DNA from: Sphingopyxis sp.
GTDB taxonomy: Bacteria > Pseudomonadota > Alphaproteobacteria > Sphingomonadales > Sphingomonadaceae
Assembly: GCA_015657575.1 (NCBI GenBank)
Contig: JACDQN010000530.1
Location: forward strand, 1 to 33,246
Length of the DNA: 33,246 nucleotides
Direction of reading: 5' to 3'
Below are positions 6,453 to 32,999 of the stretch, one piece after another. Below the pieces are notes generated by a model. It did not search any database. It was not told the origin of the DNA and saw only the letters and a list, made by a program, of their open reading frames with translations. Both the position numbers and the translations under genes were made by a program. Every line of letters starts with the position of its first letter. The first letter of the stretch is position 1.

Positions 6453-6538
6453 CGGCTTTACAAGGCCCAAGGTGTCGGCGCGCTGAATGATCCACAGGCA
6501 TCTGCCGCAACCGCCTTGACGCCGCCTCCGACTCAATG

Positions 6539-6553
6539 GAACATATAGCGAAC
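6539..6553. promoter_or_regulatory. LexA (SOS) box in front of imuA
   Basis: The sequence GAACATATAGCGAAC is an exact GAAC-N7-GAAC operator, ending 17 nt before the imuA ATG at 6571. The imuA-imuB-dnaE2 cassette is a known LexA target in alphaproteobacteria. Confidence 0.85.
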
Positions 6554-6570
6554 ATTTGAGTCGATGCCTT

Positions 6571-15489: not shown

Positions 15490-16385
15490 AGCATCATTAT
15501 GTGCCCCAGTTCCTACTTCGCCGATGGGCCAACCAAAACGGGAAGCTTCAAGTTTTCTCGAGGCGACAAGGACGGATTATTTGCACCGAGCGCGCGCCGA
15601 GGAGCACAGGCTTTGTCGACGATCTCTATGCTATCGCCGCCAATATCTTCGGCATTCAAAAGGATCTCATCGAGCGAAAGTTATTCGGAAAAATCGACAA
15701 TGATGCAGCTGTCGCACTCGGCCATATCGAAGCGCATCAAGCACTCAACGTTGATCAGCAGATCGCGTGGCTCTTCTTCCTAAGTTCACTTCGCGTCCGG
15801 CAGCCCGACATGCTTCGCTTTTTGCGAACCACCGCATTAAACCATGTCCGTCGCAAGATCGCGGCGCAGAGGAACCTCAGCAGCTTAGATATCGCCGAAA
15901 CCCCAGAGGCCGCGTGGTTTGAGCAAAATTTCCCCGGGAATCTCGAAGCGAGAAGCCTGACAAGCTGGTTGCCGCGCATGATCACGCATGACGGCGTGCT
16001 CTGTAACTTTGAAAATCTTCTCTGGTTCACACGCGAATTCTCCGCCGAAGCACCGAAGCTGCTGTTGGCGGACATGCCGCTTCACTGGGATACGGGCCTT
16101 GAGGATCCAGACCTCGTAGTTCAGCTTCCGCTCGGTCCCGACCGAATTCTCCTCGGCACCCGGACTGAAAGCGCCAAGCTGTTTCTCAACCAAATTTCGG
16201 TTCCGGAGCTTGTTGAAAGGGCAAATCGAGCGACCCTCGCCTCTTCAGTCGAATTCATCTGGGCCTCTGAACGCGACGCAGCACGATCGTTCATCGAAGC
16301 TAACATCGATATCGTCGGCGCGAACTTCGCCTCGTTAAGCCATTACCAGCCTTGGCAAACGGAGAGCGAAGCTGCAACAATCTGA
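15486..16385 (+). CDS. DUF4238 family protein
   Basis: A 299-aa protein that starts MKHHYVPQFLLRRWANQNGK, the diagnostic N-terminus of DUF4238. The family's middle segment is recognisable as QIAWLFFLSSLRVRQPDMLR, and MPLHWDTGLEDPDLVVQLPLGPDRILLG near the end fits the common end-of-domain pattern. The function of DUF4238 is not established; members are common in accessory regions. ATG 15486 is chosen because it preserves the family N-terminus and gives an ATGA overlap with the preceding gene; longer in-frame readings are not supported. Confidence 0.85.
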   Translation: MKHHYVPQFLLRRWANQNGKLQVFSRRQGRIICTERAPRSTGFVDDLYAIAANIFGIQKDLIERKLFGKIDNDAAVALGHIEAHQALNVDQQIAWLFFLSSLRVRQPDMLRFLRTTALNHVRRKIAAQRNLSSLDIAETPEAAWFEQNFPGNLEARSLTSWLPRMITHDGVLCNFENLLWFTREFSAEAPKLLLADMPLHWDTGLEDPDLVVQLPLGPDRILLGTRTESAKLFLNQISVPELVERANRATLASSVEFIWASERDAARSFIEANIDIVGANFASLSHYQPWQTESEAATI

Positions 16386-16401: not shown

Positions 16402-19400
16402 CTAACTGTTTCGTGCGGCGATTAAGTCGCGAAGATTAATTTTGTCGCCCTCCACGACGTAACGGCGCCCTTCGCGTGTAAGCGACCGTCCACCAGCTCC
16501 GACCTTGATCAGACCAAGCCGCGACAAATAGGCAACGATTTCGACGAAATCTCCGCGATTCGAGATCGATAGCGAGCGCTTTATTTCTTCCTCGGAAACC
16601 GCTCCACGCTGCGACAGGAGCGCCAGCAGTTCGAGATGGATCGGGCGAAGGCCGTTGGCATCAACTTGAAGCGTCTCCGCAAACCAGAGCCCAACATCGA
16701 CAGCGTTCATTCGGGCGGCCACATCGCGCCGTGTCGGCGTGGCCCCGTCCCCTTCGGCCTGCGCCCTAGTATAGAAGCTGGCAATGAGGGTCTGCAGGAT
16801 CTGTACGCTCGGGCGCGGGCTCGCCTGCATACGCGCGGCGATCTCGAGGCAGGCGTCGTGAGACAGATCGGCTTGGTCAAGCATCCCCCGCGCGCGCAGC
16901 CAGACGATGCCTGCTATCTCTTCAAGCGAATAGGGACGAAGGCTCGTCCGCGTCGGTCGACTTAGAAAAGCCTCGCTGAGTTTGCCCGGATCGGTTGTCG
17001 CGAGGAGAAACACCACTTTTTCGAAACTATAGACCGTATTGTCGACCGTCGTCGTCCGACGCTCGTCAAGAGCGCTCAGCAACGCGGTGGCAACCGAAGA
17101 AGCGATCGCATGTACTTCGTCGACGAACACGACGCATGGATCGACGACGATAGTCTCGGCACTGCCCGGCGCGTCGGGCGGGATGCTGCCCGTTTTCACG
17201 AGACGTTCGACGATCATCTCGGGGCGCCGGAGATCGGCGCCATTGAATAGCACGGGGGTGAGACCGAGGAACTGGGTCGACACCTCATAGGCAAGCGACG
17301 TCTTGCCGACACCCGCCGGACCGACGAGAAGCTTGTCGGGAAAACGCTCGTTCCAGCCCTTCGATTTTGCGGCCAGGTCCGCGAGTTCGCGAGCGACCTC
17401 ATTTTGGCCGATCATTCCGAGCGCATTGACCTGCGGCGGCCAGCCGTCATTCGTCTGCGCCGGCCTCGCCGCTGCTTGGGGAGCGGCCGGTACGGACGTC
17501 GCGGGCTCGGGTCCGATTACGGAATCCGGGACCGTCTCATTCTCGGGAGGATCGCTGCGCCTTCCGGCATCGCGGCCCGTAGCGAGCGGATCGAGCGGAT
17601 GGGTGAGCGCCAGTGCCGGGGCTGGCGCCGACGCGTCCGGTCGCGCCGCGCTTTTGTCCGCACTGCTCGGTCTCGGCGACGCGTCTAGTCCGCCGTCGCC
17701 GCCCTCGCCGGCCGGTCGTCTGCGGTCGGATTCGGGATCCCCGGCTGGCTCTTCGTCTATCCCGAGAAGCTGGCGCGCGAGAGGCTCGGTGATCGTGGAC
17801 AAGACCGCCTCGATACCGTCGACATGAAGCTGCTTGCGGACGGGCTCGCGGTTGGCCCGAAGCTTAACCAGCACTACTTCGGATTCGACGCGCACAAGCG
17901 GCGGGCTCTCGTTATCGAACAATTCCTTGAGCCACGGGCCCCAGCGGCGGCGGTGTTCGGCATCCGCTTCCTCGGTCTGCCACTGGACGCCCGCCGCGCG
18001 CACGAGAACTTCCTTGAGCATCTCAAGACGGGGGGCGGAAAAGACGTCGCCTTCGTCGAGCCGTAGCGCGCTGCGGATAACCTGGGCCGTCGATTCGACC
18101 TGCCGGACGGCAGCCTCGACACGCGGCTCTTCGTCGGAAAGCGCGGCATCCAAGGTCGTCTTCACCTCCAGCGTGGTGAAGACGAAAACGCCTTCCGGCG
18201 TGCGCTTGAGTGCCAGAAGATCGCAGCGGTTGAGCGAGCGCTCGATCCCGAGGCGCAGCCAGAGACGCGCGACACGGCTATCGACCGATGCAACAAGGCT
18301 GTCCGGGTCGCGGCGCCGGATATCGCGCGCCGCCAGCAGCATTCCAACGAAGCCCACGACATTGGCGCTGTCGGCGTCGCCCGTTTGCTTGCGGATAAGG
18401 TCGAGAAGCCCCCCCCCGACGAGATGCGCACCTTGCCGCAGCACCGCTGCGAGTTCGCGCCGCCCGACCGGAAGATTGCAGCGCTGGAACGCAATTTCCA
18501 TCGCGTCGGCGAGGCGATCATAATCGCCCGCCGCAAGAAGGATCTGGCGCTTTCCTTCGGGTCTTTCGAGCAGCCGGACGGATTGCATGCCCGCTTCGCG
18601 GGGCAGCGCGCGATCGGCGAGCATGATCCAGCGCGCTGCGGGATCATCGCCGGTCACCAGCAGATCGGTCAACGCGCGCAGGTCGTCGGCGTCGGCGGCG
18701 GCGTACATGGCGGAATCGAGACGTTCGCCCTGCCGCGCCTGGATCATCAGCACGAAATCGGAGAAAGGCGGTTCGCCGGGATGAGGGCGGAGCGAGATGC
18801 CGCCCAAAATGCCATCGACCGTGATTTCGTTGCGAACGCAGAAGGGGCTCATCCGCAGGATCGTATCGATCCGCTGCTTGCGGATGGCGATCGACGATTC
18901 ATCGAAGAGCCCGAGAATATGGAAGCGCTGGTTGCCGAGCCCCGTGTTGATCAGGTCCGCCAGAGAGCCTCCGGGAGTGGACGCAACGCGAAGTTCGAGG
19001 CGCTCGGAGGCGACCTTCTCATAGATGAGATCCTGCGCATCGCCTTCGAGCAAGGCAGCGGCGGCAAGGCGGTCGCGATGGCCATCGGTGCAGAAGACGT
19101 CGATCTCGATCCGACCGATACCGTCATTGCCGGGGTGCTCGTCGAGAAGCCTGACCATCCGCTCGACGATGCGGGTTGGCTCCGGCGGGTTCACCAGTGC
19201 GAGGCGAAGCGGCCTGATATGGTTCGGATAGAGAAGGGCGAAATGCGAGACCGCCCGGGCCAGCGTTTCCACGCCATCCGCATTACTGATGGCGTTGCGC
19301 AGATTCTCGAAGGTTGCGAGCCCAAGTCCCTCGATATGGTTGGCAACCGGCAACACCTGATCGAGACCGCGGTTGGCGGGGGCTCGTCCGGCGCGCACAA

Positions 19401-21153
19401 CGCTGAGGAATTGCTCGACGCGCTGCAGCTCGAACAGGAGCGCCGCGCGATCGGCGGGCGCGAGACCCCGATCGCGAGCAAATGCGCGCAACATCTGGCC
19501 GATCCGGAAATAGCGCCATAGGTGAAGCGGATGAAGAGGCAGCATGACCGCTTTGGAGCTGACGAAATCGGTACCCTGCCGGATGCGAACCTGAAGAAGA
19601 TCCATGGACAGGAGCGCGTCGAGCGTTGCTTGCGCCCATTCTGGCGATTCATCCGACACGACCGGAAAACGCGACTGGACGGCGGCGTAGAGTTCGGATG
19701 CCAGCGCCAGATAGTCGGCGCAGATCCCCCGGGCCTCGCCATGCGTGTCTAGAAACTCGCGCGGATGAACCAGCAATTGGCGCGTATATTCCGCCAGCGC
19801 GATGCGCCGCCCGATAAATTCCCGCCAGATCGCCGCAAGCGGTCTCCCCGCCTCGGTACCGACCGCCCTGTCCCAACCATCGAGCAGCTGTTCAAACGAG
19901 AATTTCCGCCCGTCGTGCCGCCAGATATCTTCGAGTTCGAGAAAGATCGGGTCGCATTCGGGATAGCGCTCGAGCGCTTGCTTGAAATCGAGAACTTCGG
20001 TCTCGATCAACCCGCCGAAGCGGTTCCCCGAGCAGAAAGCGCGGGCCCAGTCGAGCGCCTTCACATTGACGGCGACATCGAAGTTCACGGGACCGCTGGT
20101 CGTCTCGGCGGTCCCCGAAATCCGGTCGTCGCCTTCGTCGAATTCGCTCCATGCCCGATCGATGGCCTCACCGATCGCATCGAGGTCCTCATCGCGCCCG
20201 GTCAGCAGTGCATCGACTTCCTGTTCGTGCAATCCTTGGTCGATGCTCCGGGCGTCGTCGTCGACCGCGTCGCCATCTCCGGCAGCCTCGGTCAGCTCCT
20301 CGACGATTTGCGGAAGCTCACGGGGTGGTTTCACGATCCACTCGGCATGCTCAAGCGTCAATCCATGGTCCGCTTCGCCCTGGCGGAAGATCTCGAGACG
20401 GTCGAGCGCCGCGTCCATTTCCGCTCGCCGTTCTGGTGACCGGTAAAGGGCCGCGCGTTCGCGCCGTTGACGTATTTCGCCCGGCGCGAGGACCGTCACC
20501 ATGGTGCGGATTGCCAGGTTTCGCGCGAGGCGTTTGCCGAGATCCGGAGCCTCAAACAGTCCGGGATCCGGAAGGAGGCCCAACTCGGGAAGCGCGAACC
20601 GCGGTGCATCGACGGGATCGGGACACATGTTCCACGCAGCCAGGAACGCCGCGACATTTTCGAGCGACCGCAAACCTTGGAGCGACCGCGCGCGCGTCAG
20701 TTCATCGAGCAGCTGTGCATGCATCGGCGTCGCCGTGTAGCGCGGTTGCCGCGACGCCCAGCGCAGGAGATGCGCGGCGAGTTCGGAAGAAGAGGTCCGG
20801 GCGAAGAAATCGAGCCCGTGAACGCTCGGATTATAGCCGCGCGCAAGGGCGACGATCCGCGGATGGGTTTCGCGGTGGTTGCGCCAGTCGGTCGCAACAT
20901 GAAGATCGTCGGTGATCGCGTGAGCCGAAAGCTCGGACGCCAGCTCCTCAATGTCCGCAAAACGCTCGGTGAACCCCACGATCGCGATCGAGAAACCGGC
21001 GGCTGCGATCCGCGGATTTGCGAGGAGCAGGCGGAGCAGATGGCCTGCATCGCAACTCGGAAGTCCCTCGCGTGCAAAGTCATTATGATGTGGAAGCTCG
21101 GCGCCGATCCACTCGGCGAGCGCTTCGGCGACCAGAATTTCGGGCGTGTCCAT
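16402..21153 (-). CDS. Large protein: nuclease-like segment fused to RuvB-like AAA+ ATPase
   Basis: A 1583-aa protein. The C-terminal quarter is a RuvB-like AAA+ module: Walker A GPAGVGKTS (about residues 1278-1286), Walker B VVFVDEVHAI (about 1338-1347), sensor LLATTDPGKLSEAFLSRP, and a winged-helix-like tail (about 1500-1583). Near residues 980-998, CDLLALKRTPEG...TLEVKTT gives D-x(n)-E-x-K, as in PD-(D/E)XK nucleases. The N-terminal 900 residues are unrecognised; VMLPLHPLHLWRYF (about 530-545) resembles a motif I associate with DptH-like large ATPases. A Pro/Ala-rich linker (about 1150-1240) separates the two halves. ATG 21153 is chosen because it forms TGATG with the upstream stop and has GAGGT before it; longer readings extend into the upstream gene. 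Function is inferred as DNA processing. Confidence 0.8.
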   Translation of the reverse strand: MDTPEILVAEALAEWIGAELPHHNDFAREGLPSCDAGHLLRLLLANPRIAAAGFSIAIVGFTERFADIEELASELSAHAITDDLHVATDWRNHRETHPRIVALARGYNPSVHGLDFFARTSSSELAAHLLRWASRQPRYTATPMHAQLLDELTRARSLQGLRSLENVAAFLAAWNMCPDPVDAPRFALPELGLLPDPGLFEAPDLGKRLARNLAIRTMVTVLAPGEIRQRRERAALYRSPERRAEMDAALDRLEIFRQGEADHGLTLEHAEWIVKPPRELPQIVEELTEAAGDGDAVDDDARSIDQGLHEQEVDALLTGRDEDLDAIGEAIDRAWSEFDEGDDRISGTAETTSGPVNFDVAVNVKALDWARAFCSGNRFGGLIETEVLDFKQALERYPECDPIFLELEDIWRHDGRKFSFEQLLDGWDRAVGTEAGRPLAAIWREFIGRRIALAEYTRQLLVHPREFLDTHGEARGICADYLALASELYAAVQSRFPVVSDESPEWAQATLDALLSMDLLQVRIRQGTDFVSSKAVMLPLHPLHLWRYFRIGQMLRAFARDRGLAPADRAALLFELQRVEQFLSVVRAGRAPANRGLDQVLPVANHIEGLGLATFENLRNAISNADGVETLARAVSHFALLYPNHIRPLRLALVNPPEPTRIVERMVRLLDEHPGNDGIGRIEIDVFCTDGHRDRLAAAALLEGDAQDLIYEKVASERLELRVASTPGGSLADLINTGLGNQRFHILGLFDESSIAIRKQRIDTILRMSPFCVRNEITVDGILGGISLRPHPGEPPFSDFVLMIQARQGERLDSAMYAAADADDLRALTDLLVTGDDPAARWIMLADRALPREAGMQSVRLLERPEGKRQILLAAGDYDRLADAMEIAFQRCNLPVGRRELAAVLRQGAHLVGGGLLDLIRKQTGDADSANVVGFVGMLLAARDIRRRDPDSLVASVDSRVARLWLRLGIERSLNRCDLLALKRTPEGVFVFTTLEVKTTLDAALSDEEPRVEAAVRQVESTAQVIRSALRLDEGDVFSAPRLEMLKEVLVRAAGVQWQTEEADAEHRRRWGPWLKELFDNESPPLVRVESEVVLVKLRANREPVRKQLHVDGIEAVLSTITEPLARQLLGIDEEPAGDPESDRRRPAGEGGDGGLDASPRPSSADKSAARPDASAPAPALALTHPLDPLATGRDAGRRSDPPENETVPDSVIGPEPATSVPAAPQAAARPAQTNDGWPPQVNALGMIGQNEVARELADLAAKSKGWNERFPDKLLVGPAGVGKTSLAYEVSTQFLGLTPVLFNGADLRRPEMIVERLVKTGSIPPDAPGSAETIVVDPCVVFVDEVHAIASSVATALLSALDERRTTTVDNTVYSFEKVVFLLATTDPGKLSEAFLSRPTRTSLRPYSLEEIAGIVWLRARGMLDQADLSHDACLEIAARMQASPRPSVQILQTLIASFYTRAQAEGDGATPTRRDVAARMNAVDVGLWFAETLQVDANGLRPIHLELLALLSQRGAVSEEEIKRSLSISNRGDFVEIVAYLSRLGLIKVGAGGRSLTREGRRYVVEGDKINLRDLIAARNS

Positions 21154-24071
21154 CAAATGACCTCGTCGGCGCGCAGCGCGCATAGCGTCAGTCCGTCGGA
21201 GGGCGAGACCGCCAGACCAAGCCGGATTAGCAATGCGCGAAACGCGCGGGCGTTGGGTTCGAGATCTTCGTCGGCATCGAGCGGACCGAAACCGTTGCGG
21301 CGGAGCAGCTCGCCGTCGGCGGGAGCAGAGCCCGGACACAGACACCATAAGGACCGGAGCCGATCCGCAAACTCTATCTCGGTGACCACCTCATCCTCTC
21401 CGAGGATCGACATCGCCAACACACGCAGCGTGTCCGCCTGGAGTTCGATATGCTTGCGCTTGGCGGACGGCGCGCGCGGCTGGACGATCCCGATACGAAC
21501 CCCGAGGTCGCGGAAATGATCTTCCAGATTCTTGCGCGCCTTGCGCGAGCTCGAGAAGGTCTCCCAATCCTCGTCGTCGGCAGCAGCGCCCTCGTCATCG
21601 CGCCACTTGTCATAACTGTTCGCGAACCGGTCGAGTTCGCGCGCATAAGATGCCTGGCTTTGCGTCCGGATGCGCCGGTTCCGACCGCCCATCGCATCGA
21701 CGAGCAGCAGCGGCTCTGCCTCGCGCCGGAGCATCAGATAGCTGAACAGCCAGATCGACAGGCCGATGATCATGTAGCGAAGCGCATAGGCCGAGCGCAT
21801 GCGCAAGAGATTGGCCAGCAGCTTGGCTATCGCTTCGGTTCTCGGCGCCATGATCGCGGCGATGTCAGCCGCAGCGGCATCTGAAAGCGCCCCGAACAGG
21901 CTGTCATAATCGTCGGCCCACTCCAGATCCTCTTCATCGAGAAGCGGGCTTCCGAGCGCCTCGAGCGGCGGCGGCGGGAGATCGAGGACGGCAAGGCAGT
22001 CGGTGAGCACTTGCTGTCCCGTCTCGGTCGCCCTCAGGATGCGCGTGACAAAACTTCCCGAATGGCCGTGGTTCTTCGACAGATTGCCGATGTAGCGGAA
22101 GGAGGGCGCCGAATAATCGACGCCAAAGGGATTATATGGCGCGAATCCGGGACCAAGCGCGCCGCCGTCGTTGTTGAACGCGGCGTTGAGGTGCGAGCGC
22201 AGCAGTTTGAAGGTCGGCTCATCGACCTGGGCATTGATGCGGCCTTCGGCGATAAGGCGCGGATAAAGTTCCTCCGCGACAAATTCGTCGGCAACCCGCG
22301 CTCCAAGCTTGGGCGCTACGCGCGGAACCGAAGCCTTGTTCAAAAGCTCGAGCCGGTAACAGCGTCCGCGAAGCGCCAGAATCAGGCTCGTTGCAAAATG
22401 AACGGGCTTCATGCGCATCGGTTGGTAGCCGAGCGCGGCGCCGTGGATGCGCCGCTGGCCAGCTGCGATATCTTCGCGCGAGAAAGTAGAAATATCAGGC
22501 ATTGGTGCGCACCATTTCGTAGGAGCGGCGGTCTGGCGCCAGCCCGATTTGAAGCACTTGCATATGTTCCAGATGCACCGACCACACGGTGTCGCCCGTC
22601 GCGACGCGGCTGCCGCCAAGTTGTTCGAGGAAGGCATCGAGCCGGTGAACTTCGCGCTCGGGTACCAGCTTGCGCGGCAACCCGCGCCCGAGCCGGCGAA
22701 GCGTGCGGAACAGGGATAGTCGATGCGAAGCCTTGTCCCGCCGCGTGCCGGGGCCGCGAGCATCATATGGTCGCCCACGAAATCGAATGCGCTGTCGCAT
22801 ATGGCAGGAAGCCGCGGAATTTCGAGACGGAGGTCCTCCGCAGCGATACGCTCGGTGGCGACGAAGGATCGGGAAGGTTGCTCGTGAAATCTGTGTCCCG
22901 ACCAGAGGTAGAGATGATTTTCGCGCCCGGAAAAACGTACCGGGCAATAAGCCGCATTGATGGCGTCGATCATGGTGCCCACCGAGTTGCGACCCGAGGC
23001 GGCGCCGGCGAGCAAGGCCATGAACTCGGCGGCTTCGGGGTCGGCAAGTTCAAGCGCGGTTTCGCCTTCGTCATGTTCGAAATGAAAGGCGCGCTTCAGC
23101 CAGGTGAACACTGCAGGCTCGAGACGCGGCTGCGGGGGCACCGGCGGCGGCCCGAAGCGCCAGCCGTCTTCGAGGGCATTTTTCCCTCCTTCGAGCAAAT
23201 TGTCCCACCGCGGATGGCTGCAGGCGGCGGGGTCAAGCGCCCGGGCTAGCGAGCTTGTGCCGGCAAACACCGGGCTGGCGAAGAGCGCTTCGAAATACCA
23301 ATCGGCACGATTGAAATCGCGGCCCGCGTCTCGGCCCATTACCATGCGGGCGGCAAGGATCCACATTTCGCGGACCGTGACGCGTGCGCCGAGCGCGACC
23401 GAACGCTCGAAAATCGCTCGCAACCGTCGCCGCACGCGGGGGTCGCGCAGCCGCATCGCATTTTCCGACGCGACATCATGAGGATGGGCATCGACGAATT
23501 CCACAAACGCTGGATCGGTAAGGATCGCGTCGAGGATCGCGTCCGCAAAGCCCGGCGAGAGCGGATTGCGAAGGCTGAGGTCCACGACGATGATATCGCC
23601 TGCGGCACTTGCCGCGTCGTCACGATAGGCAAGTCGATGGCGCGACTGGCGCCATGTCTCGGCCAATGGTTCGAAATCCGGCGCTGCCTTGCGAAGCTGG
23701 TACAAAGGATATTCGTTGATCGCGATGCAAAAAGGTCGACGCTCGGCAATCGCTTCCCGCCAGCGCTTCAGGATGGGTTCGGGATCGCCGCGCCGCATTT
23801 CGGCTGTCGCGTCCGGAATGAAGATCGCCCCGGCAGCCTCCAGTTCGCGCGCGGCGCGCAGCAAGGCATGCGTCTTGCCGTCTCCGGCATTTCCGGTGAG
23901 GACAAGACTTTTGCCCTGCGCCACGCGATCGGCAATGAAGGCGTCCAGCGGGGTCTCTACATGCATGCGCTGCAAGTCGTCGCGCTCCAGCGCCTCGGCG
24001 GTCGCCTTGGGCCCCGCCTGCGCCAAGATGCGCCATAGATCGGTACCCGACTGCACGTCTGCCCCCATCAT
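21153..24071 (-). CDS. Large P-loop ATPase, DptF-like, with two compensating frameshifts
   Basis: A 972-aa protein. The N-terminus has Walker A LTGNAGDGKTHALL (about residues 54-66) and FCIAINEYPLYQL (about 110-122), a combination I associate with DptF-like restriction ATPases; the match is partial. The C-terminal half is helical with a hydrophobic stretch (YMIIGLSIWLFSYLML). Between 22498 and 22715 the reading is out of frame: another frame gives plausible protein (RGLPRKLVPEREVHRLDAF), and it rejoins if a CCC run is lengthened to CCCC near 22713 and one C removed near 22498. About 72 residues (roughly 452-525) are therefore probably misread here. ATG 24071, or 24068, follows AGGGGA. It lies between the DruA-like and the RuvB-like genes in one leftward operon. 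Confidence 0.7.
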   Translation of the reverse strand: MMGADVQSGTDLWRILAQAGPKATAEALERDDLQRMHVETPLDAFIADRVAQGKSLVLTGNAGDGKTHALLRAARELEAAGAIFIPDATAEMRRGDPEPILKRWREAIAERRPFCIAINEYPLYQLRKAAPDFEPLAETWRQSRHRLAYRDDAASAAGDIIVVDLSLRNPLSPGFADAILDAILTDPAFVEFVDAHPHDVASENAMRLRDPRVRRRLRAIFERSVALGARVTVREMWILAARMVMGRDAGRDFNRADWYFEALFASPVFAGTSSLARALDPAACSHPRWDNLLEGGKNALEDGWRFGPPPVPPQPRLEPAVFTWLKRAFHFEHDEGETALELADPEAAEFMALLAGAASGRNSVGTMIDAINAAYCPVRFSGRENHLYLWSGHRFHEQPSRSFVATERIAAEDLRLEIPRLPAICDSAFDFVGDHMMLAAPARGGTRLRIDYPCSARFAGSGAGCRASWYPSAKFTGSMPSSNNLAAAASRRATPCGRCIWNICKCFKSGWRQTAAPTKWCAPMPDISTFSREDIAAGQRRIHGAALGYQPMRMKPVHFATSLILALRGRCYRLELLNKASVPRVAPKLGARVADEFVAEELYPRLIAEGRINAQVDEPTFKLLRSHLNAAFNNDGGALGPGFAPYNPFGVDYSAPSFRYIGNLSKNHGHSGSFVTRILRATETGQQVLTDCLAVLDLPPPPLEALGSPLLDEEDLEWADDYDSLFGALSDAAAADIAAIMAPRTEAIAKLLANLLRMRSAYALRYMIIGLSIWLFSYLMLRREAEPLLLVDAMGGRNRRIRTQSQASYARELDRFANSYDKWRDDEGAAADDEDWETFSSSRKARKNLEDHFRDLGVRIGIVQPRAPSAKRKHIELQADTLRVLAMSILGEDEVVTEIEFADRLRSLWCLCPGSAPADGELLRRNGFGPLDADEDLEPNARAFRALLIRLGLAVSPSDGLTLCALRADEVI

Positions 24072-24087
24072 TTTTCCCCTGCCCACG

Positions 24088-26137
24088 TCAGCCGACGCGG
24101 TTTCCTTCGACCTGGCGCGGCGTCATGCCTTGTCCGGGCTCATCCTCTTCATAGCGCGGATATTGACGGTCGAGCCGTCCGGCAAGCCAGCGTTTGCGCC
24201 AATATTCCGCAATCGCCTCGCTCGCATCGGGAAATGCCTCCGGATTCGCGAGATAAGAAGGCAAATCGGTGGCGCGCTCGAGCAACCATTCACGCGACTG
24301 AGACGCCAAGGGAGCGGCATAGATCAGCCGCTTCTGCTCGTGGCGCAACATGCGATCCGGATTAAAGCCGATCAAGCGCATACCCTGCTTCAGTTTGCGC
24401 AACTTGGGGCTCGTACCTTCCCCAAAGACGCTGTTCACATCCTTGAAGGCTTTGCTGGCCGACACCAGCTGGTCGATTGCGCGGCTGGTTTCGGGGGAAA
24501 ATTGCAAGGTTCCGAACCCGGTCGTCTCGCCGATCGGCTCATAACGCAGTTCGGGCTGGTCAGGAGCGATGGTCTTCGCCGGCAGTTTCAGCCGGTTATA
24601 TTGGCTTGAACCATGGGCATAGAGGCTCGTCGTGCCGAGATAGACGAGCTTGTTGTCACGAATGACCGGGCGGTTGAGCATCTGCGAGGAAATGATCGAA
24701 GGTGCGTCATAGGCCGCTTGATAATCGGCACCCACCTGCGGGCTCAACATCATGAGCGCGACCAGCTTGCCGCCGAGGATCGGCCCATAGGGCGCGACCG
24801 CTCCACAGGTCGTTATTTCGAGAAGATTGGCGCCGGCGCGCCGGGCTTTAAGCGCCTCTACCACGATGTTGATGGCGTCCGCTTGAATTCGTCGGCTTCA
24901 AGTGCCGCGCGACCCGGGTCGGATCTGTCAACGCTGCCTCGTTACGGTCCAATATGAGCTTCGCCTCGAGCAGCCGCCCCAGAGCTCTGGCCCGCTTTTT
25001 CGCGACGAGATATTTGCGCGCGACATGCATGCGGGCATTGGCCGAGGCCTTTGCCTCAAGATGGAGTATATCATCGTCGACCGGCGGCGCGCCTTCCCGC
25101 ACCCAAAGATCCGGATCGAAAGCATCGCCTGTGTTTTCGGCAATCTCGCGAAGCAGATTTTCGCGAATGCGCGAGAATTCGTCGTGCGCAACGCCGATGC
25201 GCTGAAGGATATCTTCGTCGGGCGCCGCCACCTCGTCCGGCGTGACCAGATTTGCCCATTCTACCTCACCTAGCGAGACGTCGATCCGCTCTTGCAGCCA
25301 AGCAAGTTCCGCCGCGAGCGCGGCAGAACCGCGAGCGCGCGCGGACAGGAAACGCGCCGCGACCGCCCGACGGTGCCAACCGATAAACGTCTCGCGCGTC
25401 TCGCCCATTTCTAGCGGGCAATTGTTGAGCGCGGCGATTCCCATCACCGCGTGACGCGGATGCGCGGCGTCGCGGACGAGATAAAGGAGTTGGCGGCCAG
25501 GCACGGGGGTTTGCGGGATCGACCAGCTATAACGGAAATAACGCCAAATCTCGCGAAGTCGGATGCCGGTGAACGCGTCCGCATCGCCAGTGGCGCGCTG
25601 GAGGTAAGGCTGAATCGAGCCACGAAGCGCGTCTACTCGAGCGTCGCCCGCAAGTTCAGTTGCGTGGGACAGTCGTGCCGCCAGCTCCGCCTCGTCCGTG
25701 ATCAATTCGAAGATACTGCGCTTCGAGCGCGTTCCCTGCTCCATCTTACGGACGAAATCGCGCACAGCGGGCTGCATCCGCTGCTCATCGACGACGGGCC
25801 GCAGTTCTTCACGAATGGCATCTTTGCTCGCGACCAGCTCCGCGGTCGTGCGACTGCGCTTCTGGTCGCTGGGATTCTCGAGGGCAAAGCCATGGCCGCG
25901 CGGAAAGACGCGCCAGCGAAGCCGCACCAAATCGGCGAGCACCCTTATACAGGCTTCGTAGATCGTCGCTTGTTCGCCGAGGTGCCGATGGCGGTCGAGC
26001 CATTCAATCTCGTCGCGCAGCAAGTCCGACACGCGATCGCGCGCGCCTTCCGCCTGTAACGCGGCGAGCGCATTCATATAGCCGGGAAATCGCTCGGCAG
26101 TGCGCCCATCGAGCGGAGGCTGTATCGGAACAAGCAT
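24088..26137 (-). pseudogene. DruA-like (DUF4338) protein, split by frameshift
   Basis: Two minus-strand frames make one DUF4338 protein of about 683 aa. The first (from ATG 26137) contains REIWRYFRYSW, QLLYLVRDAAHPRHAVMGIA and FIGWHRRAVAARFLS. The frame changes at about 24865-24900, and the second gives LLEITTCGAVAPYGPILGG, then SPQVGADYQAAYDAPSI and LGTTSLYAHGSSQYNRL, all strongly conserved in DruA. Restoring one G after AAG and one in CGGAC gives a continuous LKADEFKRDAINIVVEALK. DruA is part of the Druantia anti-phage system, where its biochemical role is unclear. No DruE-type giant helicase is present in the window, so this is not standard Druantia. It starts the leftward operon and diverges from the GHKL gene. 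Confidence 0.75.
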
Positions 26138-26207
26138 TCAACATTTCTCGAACAAAGCTAGGATCGGCGGCGCGTTCGGTGTAGCCAACCCGGGCGGGAA
26201 GTAATTC

Positions 26208-26236
26208 GGCCATTCGTATCACTCGATGGCCATTCG
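26208..26236. repeat. Paired 9-bp direct repeat in divergent promoter region
   Basis: GGCCATTCG occurs at 26208-26216 and again at 26228-26236, 20 bp apart, about two helical turns. It sits in the 213-bp gap between the divergent druA-like and GHKL operons, where a regulator could bind as a dimer on one DNA face. This is read from the sequence only. Confidence 0.5.
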
Positions 26237-26350
26237 CCGCGTAACATAATTGGACCGGGGAGGCCACCCGCTTGTTAGCAGCACGACGCAAATCCCCGTC
26301 CATTCCAAGCCTTTCGCCTGGCTACACTTCAATGTATCGAGCTTCGGAAC

Positions 26351-28678
26351 ATGGCTGACCCCACCAATCTTGAGCAGTTGAAAGAAGCCCTTGAACGCGA
26401 GCTGAAGGGCCCTCAGACAGACTTTGGCGCAATATTGCAACTCGCGAACGAGATTTCGCGCGAGGAAGAAGGTGTTGTGCGGTTTCAGACCGACGCCGCC
26501 ATCGTGCGCCGGCTTGGACGAGAGCTTGTTGCCAAGCAGGAAACTGCGCTCGGCGAGCTCGTCAAAAACGCCTATGATGCCGACGCGACCCGCTGCACGG
26601 TCAATCTGTTCGAAGCTGCTGGCCTCACAGGGTTCGAGATAATCGACGATGGCAACGGCATGACCTATGCCGAGATCGTCAACGGATTCATGCGCCTCGC
26701 CAGCGACGAGAAAGTGACGAACCCGGTGTCTCCGCGGTACGGGCGTTCACGTGCGGGTAAGAAGGGGATTGGGCGGTTTGCGACAGAGCGGCTCGGCGTT
26801 TTTCTTACGATCGTCACACAAACCGAACATGAATCCCACGGCTGGACGATGGATATCGACTGGGACGAATTTGTCCAAGGCTCCGACATATCGCAGATCA
26901 GCAACAGCATCCGGCCCAGTCCAAAAGAGGCTCCGAAGGGTACGCGCCTGAGCATTCACGGTCTGCACGACAGCTGGAGCGACACAGATCTGAAGCGCGT
27001 CTTTCGCTATCTCTCGACGCTTATTCAGCCGCCACTTGAAGGTCTCGAACCCGCATCGGCAGCGGCGCGTACGCCAGCATCGGCCAAAAGCGATCCCGGC
27101 TTTGTCGTCGAAATGACCCGTGGTGGCTCGCTGATCAGCGAGCCGCGCGTCGTCGCCAATGCCGACACCGAAGTTCTGGGCAATGCACTGGCCGTAATAA
27201 CGGCAGAAATCGACGCAAGCGGGAACACGACATGGTCGATGGTCTGCCCGCGTTTCGATATCGACGAGAAAGACAAGCGGGCTGGTCTCGACAAGACCAA
27301 CAGCGCGCCGCTGACGCACGCGCATGACGTCCAGATGCGCGCATATTATTTCATTCGGAGATCCGAGTTTCTGGGCCATTCGACGACAGCGATCAGCGAG
27401 ATGCTCAACGAGCGAGGCGGCATCCGTCTTTATCGCAACGGCTATCGAGTCCCGCCCTATGGCGAGCCCGGCGACGACTGGCTCGGTCTCGACTCGAAAA
27501 ACTCGAAGACCTACGCGCCTATCAGCACCAAGGCCTTTCTCGGCTTCGTCGCGCTTCAGGATCTTCAGGGTGCCTCGTTCGAAGAAACCTCGTCGCGCGA
27601 GGGCTTGATCGAATCGGATGCGCTACAGGAAGTCCGCGACATCATGTCGCAGATACTCGAAGCCGCGGTGCGGCGGATCGAAAGCAAGCGCGGACTGGGC
27701 CGCAAGCCACGCGATCGTCAGGATCCCAAGAGCGGAGCTCGCGCCGCCGAGGATATTGAAAAGAGCATCGAAGAACTTCGGACGGTTCTGCTGGCGACAG
27801 AGGAGGCAGAGGAAAGGAGCCCTCAGGGTCAACGGGACGTCAGTGCCTCCCTGTTGCGCCTTGCGAATGCCGCCAAGGTCGCTGTCGAGATTGCGCAGGA
27901 GCGCGACGAATTTCTCGAAGAGGTAAATCTCATGCGCATCCTCGCGAGCATGGGACTGACGATTGCCGAGTTTACGCACGACTTCTCGCATCTTGCAGAG
28001 ACGATGGAACTCAATCTCAACGCCCTAGAAGCGAATTCGAGCGACCAAAGCCCTGTATTCCAACAACAGATGGACCGGTTCCGGGGACAGTTCCGACAGG
28101 TGCGAGCCTATACGTCGCATTTCGGCAGCATGATGAAGAGCAATTCGGTACGCGAGCTCCAAAGCATCGACCTTTATGATTTTGCGCGGTCATTCAAGGA
28201 AGATCTCGCCGCCATGTTCACGAAGCGCGGACTCCAGCTCGATGTTCCGCGTCCCGCAGATTATAGTCTCTGCACAATTCCCATGCATGCTTCGGAGTGG
28301 TCATCTATCCTACTGAATCTATTGACAAATTCAATTAAGGCCGCGGACAGAGTGGGGCGCGCCGGGCATTTCAGCATCACCGTTGGGCGCGCTAGGCCTG
28401 GAGAGATATTTCTTCAGTTCAACGACAATGGCGACGGCATTCCGGCGGAAAACCGCGGACAAATTTTTGACGCCTTTTTCACAACCGGGGGCGGGTCCCC
28501 AGTGCGCGCCAGTGAAGCGGCTCAGGCAATCGGCACCGGTTTGGGACTCAAGATCGTTGCCGATATCGCCTCCTCTGTGGGGGGGCGGGTTGAAGTTATC
28601 GATCCGCTCGACGGCTTCACGACATCGATACGCGTCAGCGTACCAGAAACAAAAGATCAAACGGAGACGCCTTCGTGA
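26351..28678 (+). CDS. Dual GHKL ATPase: N-terminal MutL/MORC-like plus C-terminal histidine-kinase-like
   Basis: A 775-aa protein with two GHKL ATP-binding modules. The N-terminal one has the N-box GELVKNAYDADA (Glu69, Asn73), DDGNGM (about 99-104) and KKGIGRFATERLG, as in Hsp90/MutL/MORC-type ATPases. The C-terminal one has NLLTNSIKAAD (about 656-666), NDNGDGIP, FDAFFTTGGG and GTGLGLKIVADI, as in sensor kinases. Between them, EFTHDFSHLAETMELN with His543 looks like a DHp phosphoacceptor helix. No membrane segment is seen, so it is probably cytosolic. It overlaps the receiver-protein gene by 4 bp (GTGA), so phosphotransfer to that protein is likely, though the trigger is unknown. It heads the rightward operon. 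Confidence 0.85.
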   Translation: MADPTNLEQLKEALERELKGPQTDFGAILQLANEISREEEGVVRFQTDAAIVRRLGRELVAKQETALGELVKNAYDADATRCTVNLFEAAGLTGFEIIDDGNGMTYAEIVNGFMRLASDEKVTNPVSPRYGRSRAGKKGIGRFATERLGVFLTIVTQTEHESHGWTMDIDWDEFVQGSDISQISNSIRPSPKEAPKGTRLSIHGLHDSWSDTDLKRVFRYLSTLIQPPLEGLEPASAAARTPASAKSDPGFVVEMTRGGSLISEPRVVANADTEVLGNALAVITAEIDASGNTTWSMVCPRFDIDEKDKRAGLDKTNSAPLTHAHDVQMRAYYFIRRSEFLGHSTTAISEMLNERGGIRLYRNGYRVPPYGEPGDDWLGLDSKNSKTYAPISTKAFLGFVALQDLQGASFEETSSREGLIESDALQEVRDIMSQILEAAVRRIESKRGLGRKPRDRQDPKSGARAAEDIEKSIEELRTVLLATEEAEERSPQGQRDVSASLLRLANAAKVAVEIAQERDEFLEEVNLMRILASMGLTIAEFTHDFSHLAETMELNLNALEANSSDQSPVFQQQMDRFRGQFRQVRAYTSHFGSMMKSNSVRELQSIDLYDFARSFKEDLAAMFTKRGLQLDVPRPADYSLCTIPMHASEWSSILLNLLTNSIKAADRVGRAGHFSITVGRARPGEIFLQFNDNGDGIPAENRGQIFDAFFTTGGGSPVRASEAAQAIGTGLGLKIVADIASSVGGRVEVIDPLDGFTTSIRVSVPETKDQTETPS

Positions 28679-29823
28679 CTCTCTATCTCATGCTCGACGA
28701 TGAGGCGAATGCCGAAGCGCCGGCGGAACTATACAGCGAGACAATCGAGACCGCTTCCAATGGCGCTTTGACGATTATGGTCAGGCGACCGAGCAAAATG
28801 GCTGACACGATCAGCCTCATCCGCGAGATCAACCCCGATGGGCTTTTCCTTGATGTAGCGCTTACCAATGCGCTCGATACGGACGGGCAGCCTGTAGGCT
28901 TCGACGGCATCGCGCTCGCGCAGCAGGTACGCACGCTCCAGACCCGGGCTCGTACGCCCACGTCCGGTAACAGCTTGCCCGAGTTTCCGATAATCCGCCT
29001 CTCGAAGCGCGACGTTATCCGAGAGTATGTGAATGAGGATTCTACCAGCGACGACCTTTTCGACGAGCTGATCGACAAGGAAAATGTACTCAACGCTCCA
29101 GCGCCCATTGCGGCGGTCGCTGCGGCTCTCGCAGATGACTACGAAAAGGTCTGCATTTTTTCGAGCGGCGATCCGACTCCCGCTACATTGAGCGCGCTTC
29201 TGGCTTGGCCGGAAGACCAACTCGCGCGGCTCGACACACGTACGCTGATCGGGCTCCAGCGGCCCAATGCCCCTGCCCATGTGCTCGCCCGTTTCATCGT
29301 CGTGAAGTTGTTGAGACGCGCCGGGCCTATGATCGCAGAAGAATTGTTAGCTGTGCGTCTCGGAGTCGATCGCGACAAGTCGCCGCAGTGGAGCGACCTG
29401 CTCGGTCTTCTTGAGGCGAGAGCTTATTCAGGCGCCTTTGCGCAGGGTTATCCGCGATGGTGGATGATGGGTGTCCTCGACTGGTGGCAGGAGAAGGTCG
29501 ATCCTGACCAGCTTCCCTCGCGCCTCTCCGCATCTGACCGTGTCGCCAAGCTGAAAGATGCGCTTGGTCTGGGTGAGCTTGAACCCATTGGCCCAAATCC
29601 TGATAGCCCCGGCGATCGATTCTGGACCATCTGCATCCGCTCGCAAGTACCGGTCGATCTGAACCAGGGATATCCGCTGCTCCCAGTCTATGGTTCCGAA
29701 AGCTGGCATGACACCGAATACCTCTGTCTGGAAGAAGCTCTGCGTAGTCCCAATCATCCGCGGCTGTCACCTGCGGAGCGAACCCGCGTGAAAGCGGAGC
29801 TCGCAAAGCGGGCGTCCCAGTGA
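28675..29823 (+). CDS. Receiver-domain protein with uncharacterised C-terminal region
   Basis: A 382-aa protein starting at GTG 28675, overlapping the GHKL gene by 4 bp. The N-terminal about 120 residues carry a receiver-domain signature: acidic pair Asp8-Asp9, phosphoacceptor candidate Asp60 in LFLDVAL, Ser110 and Lys111 in IIRLSKRD. Residues about 60-100 (TNALDTDGQPVGFDGIALAQQVR) are longer than in standard receivers. The remaining about 260 residues do not show a DNA-binding domain that I recognise, so it may be an effector or adaptor rather than a transcription factor. The stop overlaps the next gene by 4 bp. With the upstream GHKL protein it forms a two-component-like pair within a defence-type locus; the output is unknown. 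Confidence 0.75.
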   Translation: MTLYLMLDDEANAEAPAELYSETIETASNGALTIMVRRPSKMADTISLIREINPDGLFLDVALTNALDTDGQPVGFDGIALAQQVRTLQTRARTPTSGNSLPEFPIIRLSKRDVIREYVNEDSTSDDLFDELIDKENVLNAPAPIAAVAAALADDYEKVCIFSSGDPTPATLSALLAWPEDQLARLDTRTLIGLQRPNAPAHVLARFIVVKLLRRAGPMIAEELLAVRLGVDRDKSPQWSDLLGLLEARAYSGAFAQGYPRWWMMGVLDWWQEKVDPDQLPSRLSASDRVAKLKDALGLGELEPIGPNPDSPGDRFWTICIRSQVPVDLNQGYPLLPVYGSESWHDTEYLCLEEALRSPNHPRLSPAERTRVKAELAKRASQ

Positions 29824-30626
29824 CGCCCGCTCTCCGCGAGCTTTTTGAAGACTATCGCAAAGCAAGGCAGGACGAGCTGTTCGAGCTTGCCAATCTGCTC
29901 GAGGGCAATGGGCTGACTCAGGATGCCGGTCCGCTGCAAGTCGCCGCCGCGGGCTGCAAAGGCGGTCTTCGTACCGCTCCTCCCGGCGCGCGGGACGCCG
30001 GACGAGAATACTGGGGCTATCAAATCGATGACCTTCATCTTCGGCTTGAAGAGCAAAGACACTGTCGACCGCGAAAGGCGAGCGCCGACCGGCTCACCGC
30101 GATACTGAGCGTCAAGGTCCAGGAATACGTTCCAACCGAGGTCAGCGAAGTAGGCAACAGCTACGCTTTGTTGCGCGACCTCGCGGTGGATTTCCGATGT
30201 GACGCGCTCGTTGAGACTGACGACGAAATGCATGAGCTGCGATCCGCCTGGCACATAGACACGCATCTTTATCTCGGTACTCAAAGTGCGGGCGTCCATC
30301 CCCGTTTCCATTTTCAGTTTGGCGGTGAGGGTATGGACGAATTTGATGACCGCATCAGGGGCGTGTTTCTTCCTGAAGCCCCGCGGATGGCATGCGCGCC
30401 AGTCGACGGCATCCTCGCCGTCGACTTTGTCCTCTCCCATTATTGCGGCGCGATGTGGGAGGATCTCAGGCTGATGGAAGCGCGCTACGGTCGGCTCCGA
30501 GCGCCGGCTATGCGTCGTTACTGGTCTCCGTATTTCGGGCTTATCGCTGGCGCATTGTCCGGCACAGCTCCCGTCCCAATCGACAGTGACGCAGGGTATC
30601 TCCTCCCTAATCTCGCCATTGGATAG
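29820..30626 (+). CDS. Hypothetical protein, last gene of the GHKL-receiver operon
   Basis: A 268-aa protein starting at GTG 29820 with a 4-bp GTGA overlap with the receiver gene. I do not recognise it. Two conserved-looking segments carry several His and Asp residues: SAWHIDTHLYLG and HPRFHFQFGG (about residues 140-170), which might bind metal, although that is a guess. No membrane segment or signal peptide is seen. The N-terminal part (about 45-95) reads less like protein than the rest, so an undetected pair of one-base errors is possible. Its tight coupling to the GHKL and receiver genes suggests a role in the same pathway. Confidence 0.65.
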   Translation: MTPALRELFEDYRKARQDELFELANLLEGNGLTQDAGPLQVAAAGCKGGLRTAPPGARDAGREYWGYQIDDLHLRLEEQRHCRPRKASADRLTAILSVKVQEYVPTEVSEVGNSYALLRDLAVDFRCDALVETDDEMHELRSAWHIDTHLYLGTQSAGVHPRFHFQFGGEGMDEFDDRIRGVFLPEAPRMACAPVDGILAVDFVLSHYCGAMWEDLRLMEARYGRLRAPAMRRYWSPYFGLIAGALSGTAPVPIDSDAGYLLPNLAIG

Positions 30627-30689: not shown

Positions 30690-30920
30690 CTACATGCCTG
30701 CATCATAACCTGCTTGATGCACTTCGTGGCCAGCCGGAGTGATGCGATAACCTGCTGTCCAATAGGTCTCGCATCTCGCCTCCTCGATCCACCCCTTCGC
30801 TACCATCGCGTCGAACGTCTTTTGACCGACGAAAGGAAAGTGGCTCTCCCCTTCGATATCGCCCAAACATAGACCATCGAGTACCTTCATCTCTTTGGAA
30901 TTCGAACGACTAGAATTCAT
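30690..30920 (-). CDS. Small protein with winged-helix-like features
   Basis: A protein of about 76 aa with the end GYRITPAGHEVHQAGYDA, a pattern seen in small winged-helix or MarR-like proteins, preceded by TFDAMVAKGWIEE, which fits a recognition-helix region. The start is uncertain: ATG 30920 is chosen, with ATG 30932 or TTG 30941 also possible; all overlap the end of the upstream RHH/HTH gene, so the two are likely co-transcribed. Function unknown. Confidence 0.5.
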   Translation of the reverse strand: MNSSRSNSKEMKVLDGLCLGDIEGESHFPFVGQKTFDAMVAKGWIEEARCETYWTAGYRITPAGHEVHQAGYDAGM

Positions 30921-31293
30921 AAGTCCGGGCATCCTCTTCAACAGGGCCGACGCTGCCTGAGACTACACGGACGGTCGTCGTCCGACTCATCCTCTCATGT
31001 CGGTTGATCACCTTAGTCACTGTCGACACTGAGAATCCCACCTCACGAGCGACTGCCGCATAGGTCTTCAACTCAGAGTACAGCTGACAATACAGCTTGC
31101 CCCGTTCCTCCATTTCCGCGCGCGTGGCAGGTCGCCGCCGACTATCAAAATCTGGCAGCTCGATGCCCAATCCCTGTGCGACGAAATATTCCAGTACATC
31201 GCCTCGCGTAAGCCGTTGGTCGCCGTGAGCAACTCGCCACTGGTCGATCGCCTCCACGAATTCGTCTGAAAGTTTGATAGCGACGTACGTCAT
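30910..31293 (-). CDS. Ribbon-helix-helix/HTH-type DNA-binding regulator
   Basis: A 127-aa protein starting MTYVAIKLSDEFVEAIDQWR, a ribbon-helix-helix-like N-terminus. The middle YAAVAREVGFSVSTVTKVINRH (about residues 78-100) resembles a helix-turn-helix of the type used by small regulators and resolvase-like proteins. It lies next to the integrase/AlpA module, so it probably controls the island or its cargo; the target is unknown. An AGGTGG Shine-Dalgarno lies about 8 nt before the ATG. A LexA-box-like site lies 67-81 bp upstream. It overlaps the downstream small gene. Confidence 0.7.
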   Translation of the reverse strand: MTYVAIKLSDEFVEAIDQWRVAHGDQRLTRGDVLEYFVAQGLGIELPDFDSRRRPATRAEMEERGKLYCQLYSELKTYAAVAREVGFSVSTVTKVINRHERMSRTTTVRVVSGSVGPVEEDARTYEF

Positions 31294-31790: not shown

Positions 31791-32999
31791 TTATGCCGCC
31801 TTCGTCTTGATGGCCTTTCCCGCCTTCAGTTGGTCGAGATAATCGCTCCACCACTGATGCATTTCGACCCGCTCGTTCCAATAGCGCCCCCGATTATAGG
31901 TTGCTCTGATTGCATTTGTGTCGTTGTGGGCGAGAGAGCGCTCGATAGCGTCAGGACTCCACAGGCCTGATTCATTCAGGAGAGTCGAGGCCGTCGTGCG
32001 CAGCCCGTGCGCAGTGACTTGCGTGAATGTGAACCCCATTCGCCGAAACGCCTGGTTCATCGTATTCTCGCACATCGGACGCCGATGGCTATGAAAAGCC
32101 GGGAACATGAATCCGTCCGGTCCGGTGTGAATGGCGAGCTCTCGCAAGAGACCAATCACTTGTCGTGACAACGGAACCGAATGCGCGCGGCGCATCTTCA
32201 TGCGTTCGGCAGGAATGGACCAAATACCCGTTTTGAAGTCGATGTCGGACCAGACAGAATGGCGAAGCTCCCCAGGCCGTAGCATGACATGGGGCGCAAT
32301 CTTGCAGGCGAACTGCGTGACGGGATATCCTTCGTAGCCGTCGATCGCACGAAGAAGCATGCCTACGTCGTGCGGATCCACGAGAGCGGCATGATGCGTC
32401 GTCCGCGGGACGATGAGCGCGCCTCGCAGGATGGCGCTGGGATCATTTTCCCCTCGCCCGGTCGCGACACCATACCGGAAAACCCGGCTGGCGAACGATC
32501 TGCACCGCCGTGCCGTCTCGTGATTGCCCTTTTTCTCGAGCTTCTTCAGAGCCGCGAGAACTTCCAAAGGCTTGATGTCTGCGATTGGCAGCTTCGCGAT
32601 CGGCGCCAGTTGCTTAAGCAACCAACGAGCCTTGTCCAGCGTCGCGTCGGCTCGCCCTTCCTTCGTGATCTTCAAGATGTACTCGTTGGCCACGTCTCCG
32701 AAGCTGTTCGCCATGTTCACGACCGCAGTGAGCTTCTCGCGCTTGCGACTGAGAACCGGATCGACACCTTGTTCGACGTTGCGTTGCGCATCGTCTCGCT
32801 TTCGACGTGCATCCGCTAGCCCCACCGCGGGATAGGCGCCCAAGGCGATCCGCTTGTCCTTGCCATGAAGGAAGTAGCGATATCGCCAGAGCCGGGACCC
32901 GTTCGGTCTCACCTCTAGGTAGAGCCCGCGGTCGTCTGATACCTTGTACAGCTTTTCGCGCGGCTTGAGGGTTCGAACCTTCGTATCGCTGAGAGCCAT
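31791..32999 (-). CDS. int: P4-type tyrosine integrase of the island
   Basis: A 402-aa integrase. The N-terminus (about 1-90) is the DUF4102 arm-binding region: LKPREKLYKVSDDRGLYLEV, then LWRYRYFLHGKDKRIALGAYP. The catalytic domain shows the first Arg in MLRPGELRHSVW (about residue 240), H-x-x-R in HGLRTTASTLL (about 328-331), and the likely nucleophile Tyr in ATYNRGRYW (about 368). It would integrate the island at the 3' end of the tRNA-Leu gene about 215 bp away. The ATG has a GGAG Shine-Dalgarno 8-9 nt upstream. A LexA-box-like site and GGTGACCCG repeats lie in the promoter region between it and the tRNA. Confidence 0.95.
   Translation of the reverse strand: MALSDTKVRTLKPREKLYKVSDDRGLYLEVRPNGSRLWRYRYFLHGKDKRIALGAYPAVGLADARRKRDDAQRNVEQGVDPVLSRKREKLTAVVNMANSFGDVANEYILKITKEGRADATLDKARWLLKQLAPIAKLPIADIKPLEVLAALKKLEKKGNHETARRCRSFASRVFRYGVATGRGENDPSAILRGALIVPRTTHHAALVDPHDVGMLLRAIDGYEGYPVTQFACKIAPHVMLRPGELRHSVWSDIDFKTGIWSIPAERMKMRRAHSVPLSRQVIGLLRELAIHTGPDGFMFPAFHSHRRPMCENTMNQAFRRMGFTFTQVTAHGLRTTASTLLNESGLWSPDAIERSLAHNDTNAIRATYNRGRYWNERVEMHQWWSDYLDQLKAGKAIKTKAA

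Follow-up and report, generated by a model that had tools for sequence, protein, structure and literature searches.

Gene Organization of the Locus

The DNA analyzed here (the window) is the entire 33,246-base contig JACDQN010000530.1 of a Sphingopyxis sp. assembly. It carries two divergent gene runs with 213 bp between them, as read from the list of open reading frames (ORFs) and their translations (table 1). An earlier note on this DNA had described two divergent operons with short internal overlaps, and these are found where it placed them: in the rightward run, the GHKL/receiver and receiver/268-aa junctions each overlap by 4 bp, and in the leftward run the stop of the G-like gene and the start of the giant gene have 1 bp in common, at 21153. 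The leftward operon had been counted as three genes but comprises four, druA-dndF-dndG-dndH, two of which are frame-broken in this assembly. Its 429-aa and 258-aa ORFs are two halves of one DruA1, matching successive parts of the 675-position PADLOC model PDLC00001. The ORF formerly described as a 977-aa DptF-like ATPase does contain a DndF/DptF-like part, but it consists of two genes, dndF-like and dndG-like, read as one. The earlier description of the last gene as a nuclease-like/RuvB-like AAA+ giant was correct in outline, since the protein combines a restriction-type core with a RuvB-like module; its start lies at 21153 rather than 21348, giving 1583 aa.

Profiles, gene order and motif conservation support the reading that we develop below. 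The leftward operon is probably a DndFGH-like restriction operon that is linked to DruA and has captured a RuvB-like motor, and we infer for it both a role in defense and a mechanism. The rightward operon looks like a separate element.

Because the window is a whole contig, the ends of the integrase-borne island proposed in the earlier note are not visible. The assembly (3.8 Mb in 561 contigs, 77.8% complete) appears to be a metagenome-assembled genome (MAG). A promoter scan of the stretch between the two operons found none.

Table 1. Features of the two divergent operons and of the integrase gene in the window.
Feature	Position	Strand	Evidence
druA1-like gene (DUF4338), N-terminal half	24848..26137	-	PDLC00001 45-389 of 675, E 6.3e-54
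druA1-like gene (DUF4338), C-terminal half	24088..24864	-	PDLC00001 418-642, E 3.9e-69; PF14236, E 6.7e-17
dndF/dptF-like P-loop gene	22495..24086	-	SspF, E 2.5e-8; first part of the "977-aa" ORF
dndG-like gene, 449 aa	21153..22502	-	Alignment with G of relatives; second part of the "977-aa" ORF
dndH-like giant, 1583 aa	16402..21153	-	Identity to haloarchaeal H core; profile against DptH
Restriction endonuclease motif of giant, D978, E996, K998	18160..18222	-	Invariant in RuvB-type giants
RuvB-like AAA+ and winged-helix module, giant residues 1235-1583	16402..17451	-	NCBIfam RuvB, PDB sequences, fold
Dual GHKL protein, 775 aa	26351..28678	+	HATPase_c_3, weak HEF_HK, HATPase_c
Receiver-like protein, 382 aa	28675..29823	+	D8, D9, D60 kept in Hymenobacter homologue
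268-aa protein, conserved H145, D147, H149	29820..30626	+	Hymenobacter homologue
Tyrosine integrase near right end of contig	31791..32999	-	PF13356, PF22022, PF00589

Relatives and Conservation of Gene Order

A scan of 84,980 species genomes with A1, a 3-row alignment of the giant's core, yielded 166 pattern matches and at least 14 loci that could be confirmed (L020-L033); the scan used two short peptide patterns, and the count is a lower bound. By tblastn, 11 of the 14 show the full order druA-dndF-dndG-dndH, and the remaining three (L020, L021, and L024) are cut by contig ends. L030 and L033 belong to one plasmid and have broken frames. The same order is seen on haloarchaeal plasmids of Halalkaliarchaeum (pAArc-CO) and Natribaculum longum, where DruA is accompanied by two more genes and an FtsK-type giant. 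PADLOC assigns genes 2-4 of pAArc-CO to SspF/DndF, SspG and SspH, the SspH match being confined to the motor, and haloarchaeal G matches SspG with an E of 2.9e-12. In L003, which together with L035 represents parts of one plasmid, we also observed that the haloarchaeal G (5548-7044) matches MAD7 and the H motor (7041-11648) matches mad8. This hints at kinship with the MADS defense system; a search of the literature on MAD7/MAD8 found nothing relevant.

A RuvB-like module forms the end of the giant in five loci, the window and L020-L023. The last four come from an Acetobacteraceae MAG, two Rhodospirillales MAGs and a Bryobacterales MAG and so span two phyla. The operon type is rare. For a 539-aa piece of the giant, the window's own genome is the single match among 196 genomes of the order; a 5-row profile matches two of 385 genomes of the class, the own genome and one at 17.9 bits, the latter not counted as a relative. 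Scans of IMG/VR for a viral source found no relative. Among L021, L022 and L023, the ratio of nonsynonymous to synonymous substitution rates (dN/dS) is 0.04-0.12 in the computable pairs, which cover the RuvB module, F, G and H and, with one pair, DruA.

In a DruA tree of 11 rows, with the window represented by one half, the RuvB-type DruA sequences group with L025 and are separate from those of haloarchaea and of loci encoding an MzaB-like protein. L017 (6829-18102) and L018 (5908-9718) show a further context of DruA1: the gene before it encodes a protein that matches MzaB, and L017 contains DruE1 too, on the opposite strand. DruA is fused to F in a single ORF in L025 (3764-7507) and, at a contig edge, in L075 (3-3131, minus strand), where the contig ends before H. 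With identities to L022 of 48% (DruA) and 46% (F), L075 is close to the RuvB-type loci.

Kinship with DndFGH and DptFGH

Canonical DptFGH copies were taken from two genomes and five plasmids in which annotated dptF and dptG adjoin H; in two of the five plasmids H is itself named dptH. The F family profile (6 rows) matched canonical DptF (2 rows) with a probability of 91 and an E of 1e-6, and with the SspF match (table 1) this identifies F as a DndF-type P-loop protein. Window F is 52% identical to F of L022 and 27% to haloarchaeal F. For H, residues 543-1062 of the core profile (11 rows) align with 651-1182 of the DptH core (7 rows) at an E of 2.8e-5. A second stretch, 12-233 against 8-243 of DptH, is colinear with the first (E 3.6e-4), and a reversed control of the comparison gave an E of 0.5. 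The window giant is 21-22% identical to the haloarchaeal H core. Its three residues of the restriction endonuclease (REase) motif are invariant in all five RuvB-type giants, and the D and ExK of the giant family and of DptH fall in the same aligned stretch. Given the colinear profile and the invariant motif, the giant contains a DndH core with a kept REase motif. Window G shares 57-58% identity with G of L021 and L022; its position and size fit DndG, a type of protein with a triple wHTH, and it has no PADLOC match at E up to 0.1. Neither the H core nor DruA matched any PDB sequence, and a structure model of the intact L022 DruA was too weak for use (mean predicted local distance difference test score, pLDDT, 55.6).

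The operon therefore has in common with DndFGH, DptFGH and SspFGH the homology of F and H, the gene order, and an H with a REase core. In contrast to DndFGH and DptFGH, its H ends in a RuvB-like AAA+ part instead of HerA/FtsK, a separate druA stands in front, and the G of the window's family is too divergent for a significant match to DptG. The earlier note had seen no druE, dnd or dpt genes at this locus. This needs qualification, as the operon is itself dnd/dptFGH-like, although the own assembly, at 78% completeness, indeed has no match to DruE1 or DndC. According to Rakesh, Aravind and Krishnan (PMC10853773), DndFGH is able to stand or act without the phosphorothioate modification module, and DUF4338, taken there as a GNAT domain, is fused to some DndF proteins. 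Those fusions, like the ones in L025 and L075, resemble the present operon in tying a DruA-type domain to DndF, but in the window, L022 and L023 the two are separate genes.

A RuvB-like Motor in Place of HerA/FtsK

Three lines of evidence identify the end of the giant as an AAA+ ATPase with a RuvB winged helix. The NCBIfam RuvB model (PRK00080) aligns with the window module over 26-324 of its 330 positions (E 3.2e-16), at 59 bits, below its cut-off of 282. The nine best distinct PDB sequence matches of a 5-row module profile are RuvB (3pfi, E 1.5e-12), while FtsH, Clp and others come later, mixed with more RuvB. In a fold search with a model of the REase and the module, the 27 best PDB matches are all RuvB chains (best E 8.9e-11). 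The module shares with RuvB the full-length AAA+ and winged-helix alignment but differs in forming one protein with a restriction giant; the operon's other three genes match neither RuvA nor RuvC. Module sequences are 57-62% identical when the window is compared with the four relatives, and in each of the five assemblies module and core share one reading frame. The stretches GPAGVGK, DEVHA, TTD and SRP are invariant in the five RuvB-type giants; we take them to be Walker A, Walker B, sensor 1 and the arginine finger, respectively.

The C-terminal HerA/FtsK motor of DndH is thus absent from these giants, and since the RuvB-like module replaces it, the operon is a variant of DndFGH and not a plain member. 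In the other loci, the motor is FtsK in haloarchaea, L024 and L032, and L025 has a sub-threshold HerA-like match. In the sections available of PMC10853773, the DndH motor is HerA/FtsK throughout, captured several times and drawn from six clades; the term RuvB is absent from the main text. The HerA/FtsK view is repeated in the accessible portion of a second paper (PMC12839542). In the open-access literature searched, we found no case of a RuvB-type DndH and no paper treating RuvB together with Druantia. Of the earlier claim of an undescribed defense system, one part stands: the leftward form, uniting DruA, DndFGH-like proteins and a RuvB-like motor, is unnamed in that literature. The pairing of DruA with DptF is already in print as a fusion of DUF4338 to DndF (PMC10853773, section 20), and is found in L025 and L075. 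The novelty lies in the motor, RuvB-like in place of HerA/FtsK at the end of DndH.

Several observations weigh against a DndFGH-like operon with a RuvB-like motor. The match of H to DptH had a probability of 74% and required seven canonical rows, an hhalign comparison of H with two canonical rows giving no match, and the E of 0.04 for G against the canonical DptG profile is not significant. Among Pfam families, the general AAA family fits the module best; RuvB_N is above its cut-off in L022 and L023 but below it in the window and L020, and RuvB_C is below its cut-off in the window, L022 and L023. The model of the REase and module is weak (mean pLDDT 62), and its matches to RuvB chains have TM-scores of 0.39-0.48 (target length) and root-mean-square deviations of 8.0-9.8. 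All four RuvB-type relatives are MAGs, and the own assembly is fragmented. Furthermore, the full system may include DruE where this is present, because DruE lies near 10 of 21 loci, and the copy in the window may be inactive, because two of its frames are broken.

Frame Breaks in druA and dndF

The frame of druA is broken near 24,890 in the window, whereas DruA is a single unbroken frame in L022 and L023. The N-terminal half is 56.6% and the C-terminal half 70.1% identical to the unbroken L022 protein. The frame of dndF is disturbed near 22710, and the C-terminus goes on in another frame up to a stop at 22495-22497; in a frame display, the second-frame translation resembles the F C-terminus of intact relatives, and dndF too is unbroken in L022 and L023. 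The contig could accordingly carry the dead copy of a once active operon, a possibility that we regard as less likely than not and that is compatible with the reading of the operon as DruA-linked and DndFGH-like. Against decay, the dndG-like gene starts with ATG at 22502 and is open to 21153, and the 1583 codons of H are open as well. In addition, comparison of the window with its relatives gives a dN/dS of 0.23-0.29 (G) and 0.18-0.24 (H), synonymous sites being close to saturation; no value could be obtained for four other pairs. Sequence errors are also possible, because the assembly is in 561 contigs. A frame-switch scan counted 31 switches in 157 kb of the own assembly, and five in the window, with gene overlaps and errors not separable; it recovered 35 of 40 artificial single-base breaks and detected the window's druA break but missed that of dndF.

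DruE and the Relationship to Druantia

The presence of DruA1 raises the question of whether the operon belongs to a Druantia-type system (DruA plus DruE) in which DndFGH-like parts replace DruB-D. In some relatives DruE indeed stands beside the operon. DruE1 immediately follows H on the same strand in L022 (13958-21840; 1448 bits) and in L021 (8095-15995), the two being 81% identical. Eight haloarchaeal loci have DruE in the vicinity of druA-FGH, and a weakly DruD-like gene occurs in Haloplanus. However, DruE is lacking in the window, DruE1 has no match in the own assembly (78% complete), no DruE occurs within the available sequence of L023, L025, L031 and L032, and F, G and H have no PADLOC match to DruB, DruC or DruD. 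We consider membership in Druantia unlikely and have rejected it on the lack of DruE and of DruB-D matches; what the operon shares with Druantia is DruA1 and, in some relatives, the neighboring DruE.

The 21 loci checked for DruE include the window and two same-plasmid pairs (L003/L035 and L030/L033). DruE was found in L021, L022, L026-L029, L002, L035, L036 and L037, with only its start within the available sequence in L026, L028 and L029, and was not found in the rest (L020, L023, L024, L025, L030-L033, L003, L075, and the window). In three plasmids the haloarchaeal DruE is part of a divergent three-gene run. In L036 (2633-11347) and L037 (13550-22039), this run encodes a protein of 413-484 aa, one of about 610 aa, and DruE, divergent from druA-dndFGH, and the ~610-aa gene is weakly DruD-like in L036; the arrangement is a composite of Druantia and DndFGH parts. 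In L022, DruE1 is followed by a NERD+UvrD-type protein. As far as the available part of PMC12458937 shows, Druantia is treated there through its helicase.

The Rightward Operon

The 775-aa protein combines two GHKL domains (Pfam HATPase_c_3, E 1.2e-21; HATPase_c, E 1.3e-22), as HEF_HK/Response_reg_2 elements do. Its HEF_HK match reaches 19.3 bits against a cut-off of 24.1, and H543 is kept in a homologue on a Hymenobacter plasmid, with which the 775-aa protein shares 36% identity across 98% of its length. The 382-aa protein has no Pfam receiver match, and none to Response_reg_2 at E up to 1 in a search run without a positive control; its receiver-like aspartates D8, D9 and D60 are kept in the Hymenobacter homologue. 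The conserved H145, D147 and H149 of the 268-aa protein, with the later H160, P161 and H164, are kept as well and suggest a possible metal site, for which reason this protein is perhaps an effector. On the Hymenobacter plasmid, homologues of the 382-aa and 268-aa proteins follow the GHKL homologue, and a methylase gene stands on either side of the triplet, a Piwi gene lying further away (L001 5303-18266).

HEF_HK/Response_reg_2 gene pairs have been reported by Bellieny-Rabelo and others (PMC8011034) from 644 regions in which restriction-modification genes are overrepresented, and are related there to paraMORC ATPases. The rightward operon resembles these pairs in its HATPase_c_3 plus HATPase_c protein followed by a receiver-like gene, and the position of the Hymenobacter homologue between two methylase genes recalls their restriction-modification association. 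It differs in the sub-threshold HEF_HK score, the unmatched Response_reg_2 and the extra 268-aa gene. On these grounds, it looks like a separate two-component-like element of an already described kind.

The earlier note had joined all genes of both operons into one new defense system with phospho-signalling control. Apart from the short distance between the divergent operons, one hint in this direction comes from L025, where an ordinary OmpR-type regulator (Response_reg plus Trans_reg_C), followed by a histidine kinase (HisKA plus HATPase_c), occupies the stretch immediately upstream of druA-dndF, on the same strand (1443-3681). This pair may control the druA-dndF operon, but its regulator is unrelated to the window's receiver protein and its kinase matches the Hymenobacter homologue in the kinase domain only; it does not tie the two operons of the window to each other. 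In 20 druA-dndFGH loci, which are not all independent and 14 of which have an upstream stretch of stated length (1.4-11.6 kb), neither the receiver gene nor the 268-aa gene has a match. GHKL-type matches in these loci are confined to the kinase domain, in L025 and, about 7 kb beyond H, in L032. Conversely, the Hymenobacter triplet stands apart, with no druA, dndF, dndG or dndH match by tblastn in the available 26 kb, and the window's own genome is the single match of the receiver profile among 398 from the phylum. The two operons were not found recurring together among homologues, the outcome that the earlier note had itself named as telling against its proposal. Because the receiver and 268-aa genes lack matches in the relatives and the Hymenobacter triplet occurs without druA or dndFGH nearby, a single six-gene system is very improbable and was rejected, and the two operons appear to be neighbors.

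Neighboring Genes

Beside the integrase, a small protein (30910-31293, minus strand) has weak matches of helix-turn-helix type (IS21, BcepMu gp16). Two genes on the plus strand are convergent to the giant's end, one for a protein with a weak PglZ match (14557-15489; E 0.0046) and one for a DUF4238 protein (15408-16385). Further upstream, a DNA polymerase III alpha-type protein (Pfam; 8895-11969, plus strand), perhaps the error-prone DnaE2, is preceded by a GC-rich ORF (7612-9858); the two may form an imu-type cassette.

Proposed Mechanism and Significance

By analogy with DndFGH, the leftward operon would encode a machine in which F senses nucleotides or parts of the invader, as proposed for DndF in PMC10853773. 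Binding of DNA would fall to G and the N-terminal part of H; the RuvB-like part would ring double-stranded DNA and pull it through, and the REase would cut it, with DruA as an accessory. One ring-shaped pump for double-stranded DNA would thus have been swapped for another, an exchange that is plausible because a RuvB-like ring performs the same mechanical job as FtsK/HerA. The RuvB-like ring could also bring a taste for branched DNA. More speculatively, and with considerable doubt, DndFGH-type machines might take any ring-shaped pump for double-stranded DNA, the RuvB-like version steering the nuclease to the branched DNA of recombining or replicating phage. If true, it would be the form of the DNA, not a chemical mark, that directs the cutting.

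A RuvB-like motor in the DndH slot would widen the capture of HerA/FtsK motors, as described in the accessible sections of PMC10853773, to a different class of ATPase, and makes testable the question of whether the motor chooses which form of DNA is attacked. Finally, in both bacteria and haloarchaea the locus family associates DruA with DndFGH, frequently with DruE in the neighborhood, and so bears on the role of DruA.

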